DNA of 64,000 nt from Phycisphaerales bacterium (GTDB lineage Bacteria > Planctomycetota > Phycisphaerae > Phycisphaerales > SM1A02), in contig JAQWNP010000011.1 in NCBI GenBank assembly GCA_029268515.1, forward strand, positions 1-64,000, in the 5' to 3' direction. The translations under genes and the position numbers were made by a program. Each line of letters starts with the position of its first letter. Position 1 is the first letter of the stretch. This document shows, piece by piece, positions 28,956 to 30,740 of the stretch. Below the pieces are notes generated by a model that was not told the origin of the DNA, searched no databases, and saw only the letters and a program-made list of their open reading frames with translations.

Positions 28956-30076
28956 GCCTTATGCACGTTGCGATGCTCATGGATCCCGAACGTATCTTGG
29001 CTGAGTATCCGATGCTCAATCGCCTCTGTATCGGAATGATTGACCAGGGCGTGCGCGTGACAAGAGTGATTCCAGATGATCCAATGACGCCTGCAATCAT
29101 TGCAAGCGAGCGACGCATTGCACTGGCACCTCGTATTGAAGTACCAATACCAATTGCACCCTGGATGCGCCGCAATCGTGCCGCTCGAGTCACAGCAGCG
29201 CTCGAACGTCAACCGCCCGATCTCATCTATGCCATCGGCGAGCAAGTCACTGGCCTGGCAATGGACATTGGCCAGAACCTTGAACGACCTGTGGTGCTCG
29301 ACATTTGGAGCTCGCGCGTTGCCGCTCGTATTCCAAGGGGCAGGTCTGCCCGGCCCTTGGCGGCCTGTGTTGCTGCCACCGAACCATTGCTCAACCTGGC
29401 AGCTCAACGATTCGATGGACATCATGTCCACCTGGTACCAATGGGCATACCCATGAGTAGTGATTCTGGCCCCGGTTCCCAACTGCCAAATGCTCGCAAG
29501 AATTGTCCAGGCATGACGCCGATTGCTGTGATGGGTACGGCCCACAACGATATTCCAGCCTATCGCGCCATGCTAGGCGCCGTGAGGCGATTGCTTGATG
29601 AGTATCCAGATCTCCACCTCTTTCTCGAACTTCGTGGACCGCGCGCCCATGGCATCTGGCAGATTGTGCAACAGCTAGATTTGCTATCCCACGTATCCAC
29701 GCTGCCCGACGCACAACTCTACCGGGCCCTCCTCACACAGTCAGCAGTTCTCCTGATGCCCGATCCAGCTGGTGAAGTGCGCACACTGATGCTTGAAGCC
29801 ATGTGGCAAGGTGTTCCAATCGTGACACGCGAAGATCCCTATCTTGACATGCTCCAGGAAGATGTTTCCGCCTTACTCTGCCAAGCTGGAGATATTGAAC
29901 ATTGGACACGACAGATCAAACGACTGTTGAGTGACGATGTGCTTCGCACCCGACTGACTTCAACCGCACGGGCCATGGTCAGCCAACAAAATCGAACGAC
30001 AGATCAAGTGATGACCCTCATTGAGTGCTTGGATCTCGCAGCACATGGCGGCGTCCATCAGTTCCCAGGCAGCTAG
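28952..30076 (+). CDS. GT4-like glycosyltransferase
   Basis: 374 residues from GTG 28952, chosen because it overlaps the previous stop as GTGA; ATG 28961 is three codons later. GT-B organisation: an N-terminal half starting MHVAMLMDPERILAEYPMLN and a C-terminal half with IAVMGTAHNDIPAYRAML, LLMPDPAGEVRTLMLEAMWQGVPIV (EX7E-like) and ALLCQAGDIEHW. It likely transfers an activated sugar to a lipid or surface glycan. Coupled to DUF971 and hotdog genes, an unusual trio. It is followed by a structured region and a strong terminator. Confidence 0.83.
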   Translation: MSLMHVAMLMDPERILAEYPMLNRLCIGMIDQGVRVTRVIPDDPMTPAIIASERRIALAPRIEVPIPIAPWMRRNRAARVTAALERQPPDLIYAIGEQVTGLAMDIGQNLERPVVLDIWSSRVAARIPRGRSARPLAACVAATEPLLNLAAQRFDGHHVHLVPMGIPMSSDSGPGSQLPNARKNCPGMTPIAVMGTAHNDIPAYRAMLGAVRRLLDEYPDLHLFLELRGPRAHGIWQIVQQLDLLSHVSTLPDAQLYRALLTQSAVLLMPDPAGEVRTLMLEAMWQGVPIVTREDPYLDMLQEDVSALLCQAGDIEHWTRQIKRLLSDDVLRTRLTSTARAMVSQQNRTTDQVMTLIECLDLAAHGGVHQFPGS

Positions 30077-30091
30077 CCATACGCAATAAAC

Positions 30092-30293
30092 GGCCCTTTG
30101 GAGCAAGCTATCCCGAAGCTTGCCCCCATATTTGCGCCAAAAATAGCGCTCCACTGGGCTAGGTCAATTGCGGAGAAAAAATATGGCGAGATGGAGGCCT
30201 GTGGTCCGACACCATTCCAGGTCACTGCAAGGGCCCATAACTTGATCTTTCTCCCCTCCGCCCCGTTGGTGCATCTGTACCAACGGGGTTTTT
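30092..30293 (+). ncRNA. candidate structured small RNA or 3' UTR RNA
   Basis: Five nested or adjacent helices can be drawn by eye. P1 pairs GGCCCTT 30092-30098 with AAGGGCC 30229-30235 and closes a multibranch containing: P2 GCAAGCT/AGCTTGC (30103-30109/30117-30123, 7-nt loop); P3 CCATAT/ATATGG (30126-30131/30181-30186) enclosing CTCC/GGAG (30149-30152/30172-30175); P4 GGCCTG+TGGT/ACCA+CAGGTC (30196-30205/30211-30223, UUC bulge, one G-U). A 10-bp terminator hairpin follows. No ORF covers it. It matches no RNA class I know (not tmRNA, RNase P, SRP; 6S unproven). Confidence 0.5.
30261..30293 (+). terminator. rho-independent terminator
   Basis: Perfect 10-bp stem CCCCGTTGGT/ACCAACGGGG around an 8-nt loop, followed directly by TTTTT. 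It ends the transcript of the DUF971-hotdog-glycosyltransferase operon and/or the structured RNA before it. Confidence 0.92.
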
Positions 30294-30346
30294 CTAGCAA
30301 ACGACGCCCCGCTCAGAGCAGGACCAAGCATGTTTTAGTCCCCAAG

Positions 30347-30376
30347 TTGCCCTGATACTAATGCGATTGCTACACT
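30347..30376 (+). promoter_or_regulatory. possible sigma-70-type promoter for small lipoprotein
   Basis: TTGCCC (30347-30352) and TACACT (30371-30376) with an 18-bp spacer, lying after the terminator and 90 bp before the lipoprotein start. Suggestive only. Confidence 0.3.
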
Positions 30377-30467
30377 TTTAGTGCTTGAAATGCAGGGAGC
30401 CCAATAGCAGTAGCGCCCTTGCTCATCTTATGACGGATACTCTTCCTTCTTGATCCAGGAGACCCTT

Positions 30468-30740
30468 ATGATCACACGAAAGTCCACAGGACTCTTTATT
30501 CTTACTCTCTCAGCAGCGCTCGCTGTTGGCCTCACTGGCTGCGGCAAAGGCAAGGGAACGGGCGGGTCAACACCCCCACCAGGCACAACCACATCGCCAA
30601 ATGGAGGCTCCGCTTCTTCAGGTGGAACGCCAACCAGAAACCCCAATGCTGCACCAGTCGCACCAGTTGGAACGTCGAGCAACGCGAATACCCAATCACC
30701 CCCTCCAGGAATGACTGGCGGCGCTGGACGAGGCAACTAA
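30468..30740 (+). CDS. small low-complexity lipoprotein
   Basis: 90 residues from ATG 30468, with AGGAG (30457-30461) 6 nt upstream. A signal sequence ends in the lipobox LTGC (lipidated Cys at about 25), and the mature part is almost entirely Gly, Ser, Thr, Pro, Asn and Ala, without predicted fold. It is probably a small surface or periplasmic lipoprotein; function unknown. It has its own possible promoter and a strong terminator, so it is likely monocistronic. Confidence 0.75.
   Translation: MITRKSTGLFILTLSAALAVGLTGCGKGKGTGGSTPPPGTTTSPNGGSASSGGTPTRNPNAAPVAPVGTSSNANTQSPPPGMTGGAGRGN

Follow-up and report, generated by a model that had tools for sequence, protein, structure and literature searches.

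A conserved C/U-rich tract and its terminator as the 3' end of a probable small RNA gene family in the Phycisphaerae

Introduction

What is encoded between the stop codon of a glycosyltransferase gene (30076) and the start of a small lipoprotein gene (~30470) in the Phycisphaerales bacterium assembly GCA_029268515.1? The DNA analyzed here (hereafter referred to as the window) is a stretch of 64,000 nucleotides (contig JAQWNP010000011.1, positions 1 to 64,000), in which the local gene order is GBBH-like_N protein, thioesterase-like protein, glycosyltransferase, the putative small RNA (sRNA), small lipoprotein and aminotransferase. An earlier note on this intergenic interval described a candidate multi-helix RNA of about 200 nt, with nested pairing across 140 nt (helices P1 to P4) and a perfect 10-bp terminator, and considered that it might be an independent sRNA, a 3' UTR-derived sRNA or a cis-regulator.

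Folding of the region upstream of the terminator

The helices proposed upstream of the terminator are as follows:
30092-30098/30229-30235, + strand: arms of P1
30103-30109/30117-30123, + strand: arms of P2
30126-30131/30181-30186, + strand: arms of P3
30092-30235, + strand: P1/P2/P3 multibranch, unsupported as a conserved structure (comparison with genome G001)
30196-30205/30211-30223, + strand: arms of P4, a candidate 5' hairpin of the sRNA with the loop CCGAC (G000 versus G001, two sequences only)

All the arms were present as described. The region from 30080 to 30300 folded at -84.3 kcal/mol, with a z score of -4.19 relative to shuffled sequences (0/200 as good), but this excess was mostly that of the terminator, because the terminator region alone (30245-30297) had a z score of -6.9, whereas the multibranch segment without the terminator (30086-30240) had z scores of -1.99 on the + strand (9/200) and -2.01 on the - strand. 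Values of about -2 on both strands are marginal and indicate no strand specificity. The minimum-energy fold of 30080-30300 differed from the proposed multibranch; P1, P2 and P4 did form once the segment was folded without the terminator.

A genome from the same genus (G001, locus L009/L002), with a glycosyltransferase 89% identical to that of the window, retained all 12 pairs of the terminator and eight of the 10 pairs of P4 (two pairs were changed on both sides, in a comparison of two sequences only). Fewer pairs were kept in P1 (3/7), P2 (3/7) and P3 (1/6). As P1-P3 are broken within the genus, they are chance or lineage-specific pairings, and this multibranch was rejected. The claim of a closed structure with nested pairing across 140 nt is also difficult to reconcile with stop-to-core distances as short as about 45 nt in other genera of the family (see below). 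The comparison thus supports the terminator and perhaps P4 (30196-30223), the only upstream helix to be partly kept, which may constitute the 5' hairpin of the sRNA, but not P1-P3.

A C/U-rich core ahead of variable terminators

In a DNA search of 60 relatives, it was mainly the 3' end of the region (30245-30293) that was matched, repeatedly and strongly. The earlier note had overlooked an invariant tract located here, CUUUCUCCCCUCC, ahead of the terminator. In the window, this core is the 13-mer CTTTCTCCCCTCC, with the inner core TTTCTYCCCTCC, and it directly adjoins the terminator hairpin. The features of this 3' end are:
30244-30246, + strand: GAT, a short conserved approach ([C/G]A[T/G] in the family; column information)
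30247-30259, + strand: C/U-rich core CUUUCUCCCCUCC, anti-Shine-Dalgarno (anti-SD)-like, a predicted single-stranded seed (order-wide conservation)
30260-30289, + strand: intrinsic terminator hairpin GCCCCGTTGGTGC-ATCT-GTACCAACGGGGT (terminator scan, covariation)
30289-30293, + strand: T-run, the expected 3' end of the transcript (sequence; T-runs also follow the hairpin in other copies)

The terminator is indeed a perfect hairpin followed by a T-run, with a stem of 12-13 bp rather than the 10 bp initially reported.

A search with GATCTTTCTCCCCTCC (≤1 mismatch) identified about 96 sites, distributed over 73 of the 151 genomes searched from the order, versus a single site for the reversed control; a chance CU tract was rejected on the basis of this almost empty control. 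At E≤0.001, a covariance model of the core and terminator (R1, built from 23 sequences) matched 144 of the 201 genomes searched from this order; the weakest of these matches may correspond to the terminator only. Copy number per genome ranged from one to a few, with a single strong copy (E value of 7.7e-22 with the covariance model) in the genome of the window. Two units were found in tandem, about 180 nt apart, in one genome (L236; G052:C111:12089 and 12273).

Elsewhere in the class, beyond this order, variants carrying TTTCTTCCCTCC or TTTCTCCCCTCC were found ahead of other terminators. A phylum-wide search for the exact 13-mer plus a T-run yielded only scattered matches with other layouts, and thus no clear spread beyond the class. 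The exact window-type core and terminator start had no match in viral contigs, and a phage or mobile origin was rejected. In two members of the distant family f78 (L101 and L102; G365:C6:47757 and G343:C177:11106), CTTTCTCCCCTCC overlaps a CCTTTCC..GGGGAAGG hairpin followed by a T-run; these matches may reflect a distant relative, convergence or chance.

The core was TTTCTCCCCTCC in 94 and TTTCTTCCCTCC in six of 100 non-redundant copies; these copies were collected with that same pattern, and independent evidence of invariance is provided by the DNA search, the pattern counts and the covariance-model search. The position immediately before TTTCTCCCCTCC/TTTCTTCCCTCC was a C in 89 of the 100 copies, with [C/G]A[T/G] ahead of it. 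The information content of the three positions preceding the first C of the core was 0.29, 0.82 and 0.92 bits, with background values beyond them.

The terminator covaries: in an alignment of 23 sequences, 94.6% of cells were paired, and two-sided changes were observed for nine of the 12 pairs, with none of 500 shuffles performing as well. Several classes of terminator sequence were distinguished: GCCCCG (the window type, and the commonest), GGAAAG/GGAAAA (second copies in family f1, with relatives in f9 and f108), GCGCGT (f4), GGACGG and ACCCCG (f2), and TTACCCCG (f99). The core remained fixed while the terminator changed class, including in the GGAAAG-type paralogs present within the same genomes; no GGAAAG-type copy was found in the genome of the window. 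A constant core, replaceable terminators and paralogs in one genome point to selection on the core. The tract was absent from the only other strong terminator detected in the window, and the possibility of a general terminator feature was rejected on these grounds.

The conserved, accessible seed expected of a trans-acting base-pairing sRNA has a counterpart in this invariant core, which was predicted to be unpaired more often than with shuffled leaders (mean unpaired probability of 0.77 versus 0.72; 70 of 100 copies more open, p = 0.001), although the effect was small. For a longer window transcript, the predicted fold has some of the core paired with the leader. The reverse complement of the core, GGAGGGGAGAAAG, includes the Shine-Dalgarno (SD)-like sequences GGAG and GGGAG.

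Promoters and gene context

Relative to dinucleotide shuffles, sigma-70 scores peaked at sites in which the -10 element ended 39-51 nt before the core (combined z score of 5.2). This peak was strong in families f6 (z = 4.5) and f4 (z = 4.2), and weak in f1 (z = 1.7). In family f2, the -10 element ended closer to the core, at a distance of 3-15 nt (z = 6.0, three copies). Examples include TTGACC-17-GATACT (L065) and TTGTCA-16-TATACT (L072 and L085). When the 130 nt upstream were searched without regard to position, the excess of sites was only modest (26% versus 12% at a score ≥8). Considering the features of a trans-acting sRNA gene, the terminator is present and the promoter is significant in f2, f4 and f6, whereas no sigma-70 site was found on the + strand upstream of the window copy.

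The upstream gene was co-oriented for 44 and divergent for 15 of 59 classifiable copies, the classes being based on open reading frames rather than on a proper gene caller. In family f1, the gene ahead of the unit is often co-oriented, its stop codon lying as little as about 45 nt from the core in some genera, and the unit is often close to orthologs of the genes neighboring the window copy. In f6, it is often preceded by a ROK-like sugar kinase gene (annotated by eye). The gene context varies from family to family, and the RNA is thus not tied to a single gene.

Promoters at set distances, together with divergent upstream genes for 15 of the 59 copies, argue that the unit is an sRNA gene in its own right and not a decoration of a 3' UTR, at least where they occur, and the status of an independent gene is well supported by sequence in several families. 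The f1 units could be 3'-UTR-derived, given the lack of a clear promoter for the window copy and the weak f1 peak, and such an origin is possible for the window copy itself. Thus, of the possibilities raised initially, the independent sRNA is favored by evidence beyond that then available (conservation of the unit across the order and the class, promoters at set positions and the absence of an Rfam match). The 3' UTR-derived sRNA may apply to the window and f1 copies, but conflicts with the divergent genes and set promoters found elsewhere. A cis-regulator of the downstream lipoprotein gene is disfavored, as that gene is preceded by the terminator and the neighbors are not the same in all families.

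Proposed mechanism and alternative explanations

The conserved element is real and very probably represents a new sRNA family, the function of which we infer from its sequence. We consider it probable that the 3' end of the region belongs to a class-wide family of trans-acting, Hfq-independent sRNA genes with an unstructured anti-SD seed. The transcript would end in the invariant, mostly unpaired CUUUCUCCCCUCC followed by the intrinsic terminator, and, in many lineages, would be produced from a sigma-70-like promoter of its own, as an RNA some 55 to 100 nt long. The C/U tract would pair in trans with several mRNAs at their purine-rich ribosome-binding sites (GGAG/GGGGAGAAAG), possibly in more than one register for GGAG-type sites, and this pairing would block translation initiation and/or trigger decay, without Hfq. 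Hfq was found in none of 21 genomes sampled, the control genomes being positive. An antisense mechanism at SD sequences is suggested by the sequence and predicted accessibility of the core; transcription in this organism, the pairing itself, the direction of the regulatory effect and the 5' terminus of the window RNA are likewise predictions. So widely conserved a family, in bacteria for which the Hfq search was negative, would provide a concrete handle on post-transcriptional control in planctomycetes. A broader version, which we put forward tentatively, is that of an ancient class-wide Hfq-independent superfamily in which a linear anti-SD tract, the sole fixed part, is combined with a freely evolving terminator; it would have paralogous genes in many genomes and serve as a global translation regulator in competition with the ribosomal anti-SD sequence.

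The tract and terminator might instead end the upstream mRNA (here, that of the glycosyltransferase), serving stability, termination efficiency or the release of a processed sRNA. The position of f1 copies shortly after co-oriented genes and the window copy without a clear promoter of its own are consistent with such a 3'-UTR element, but the divergent upstream genes, the fixed promoter distances in f2, f4 and f6 and the change of neighbors between families make it an unlikely general explanation. It is quite improbable that the tract is a binding site for a protein (cold-shock-type, S1-like, Rho/NusG or another pyrimidine-binding protein) with the RNA serving as a sponge for it or as an element for pausing or termination, and not as an antisense regulator. 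A pyrimidine-rich, largely unstructured and invariant tract adjoining a terminator would suit such a site, as would the lack of Hfq in the order sample and of a conserved mRNA partner in the target search. However, the tract is missing from the other strong terminator of the window, each genome has only one copy or a few, and the sequence of the tract is fixed base by base, as for a pairing seed. A large closed multibranch RNA (P1-P4) of 140-200 nt, acting as a structured non-coding RNA or cis-regulator, is very improbable: the z score of -4.2 for the whole region and the formation of P1, P2 and P4 without the terminator are outweighed by the z scores of about -2 on both strands, the loss of P1-P3 within the genus and the existence of genera in which the available space is too short.

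For the favored trans-acting sRNA, the number of GGGGAGAAAG-N-ATG sites in 121 genomes exceeded that of the reversed control, but this excess is not discriminating, because purine-rich sequences are expected before ATG in any case and some matches are the antisense strand of the sRNA itself. In genus g19 (L183 and L184, two genomes), a secreted-protein gene has GGGGGAGAAAG as its SD sequence, with 10 bp of complementarity to the core; when followed through the genus, a complementary SD was present in some orthologs only, in weaker versions, and was not consistently conserved.

Comparison with known RNAs

No Rfam family was detected at the gathering score over the window, and there was no relevant match for 29900-30500 (E≤10) or for 12 other loci of the family (E≤1). 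Membership of an Rfam family, including that defined by the RsaE/RoxS covariance model, was rejected on the basis of these searches, and the initial impression that the RNA resembled no nameable class was borne out. AbcR-type/alpha-r sRNAs are trans-acting regulators with anti-SD regions; their sequence and architecture differ from those of the Phycisphaerae unit, which has no Rfam match. Hfq-dependent sRNAs require a protein not found in any of the 21 genomes sampled from the order.

RsaE/RoxS, an sRNA of Firmicutes, has a duplicated UCCCC seed motif that pairs with SD sequences (PMC9217828). It resembles the Phycisphaerae unit in being a short sRNA with a terminator at its end and C-rich seeds pairing with SD sequences (PMC9217828), but the unit described here has a single 13-nt CUUUCUCCCCUCC adjoining the terminator (30247-30259), belongs to an unrelated phylum and has no Rfam match to RsaE. 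The CcsR or "cuckoo" RNAs and SmelA075/SmelA099 share with it a constant anti-SD sequence (CCUCCUCCC in these RNAs), diverging stems and multiple copies (PMC3927594; PMC10253847). In SmelA075/SmelA099 from Alphaproteobacteria, CCUCCUCCC is carried in hairpin loops (PMC3927594), and the CcsR RNAs share a transcript with a DUF1127 gene (PMC10253847). The motif of these RNAs lies in the loops of several hairpins in a row, whereas the Phycisphaerae core is predicted to be linear, 5' of the terminator, and the units are scattered genes with the sequence CUUUCUCCCCUCC. The linked DUF1127 gene often found with the cuckoo RNAs is absent from the immediate neighbors of the window copy. On the best reading, the unit would, if the proposed mechanism is right, work like RsaE/RoxS or the CcsR/cuckoo RNAs, yet belong to neither, and it would then join RsaE and the cuckoo RNAs as another, independent instance of C-rich anti-SD seeds. 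No previous report of an sRNA family in the Phycisphaerae was found in the literature searched, most subscription papers being outside its reach.

Other sequence elements upstream of the core

A second, weaker conserved element was detected upstream of the core:
30204-30209, + strand: GTCCGA, a conserved hexamer (enriched relative to dinucleotide shuffles)

This hexamer was present in 18 of 84 copies, versus 2.1 expected from dinucleotide shuffles. It lies some 20-110 nt ahead of the core, in the window (30204-30209) and in L074, L086, L138, L152, L003, L030, L031 and L033, for example, often as TGTCCGATTT in family f4. As the corresponding loop forms in some copies only, a constant hairpin-loop element was rejected; GTCCGA may belong to the promoter or to the RNA itself. 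Finally, CGAATAAC was enriched about 40-60 nt before the core in the f1 copies L051, L052, L053, L059 and L060, and is possibly a lineage-specific promoter element.
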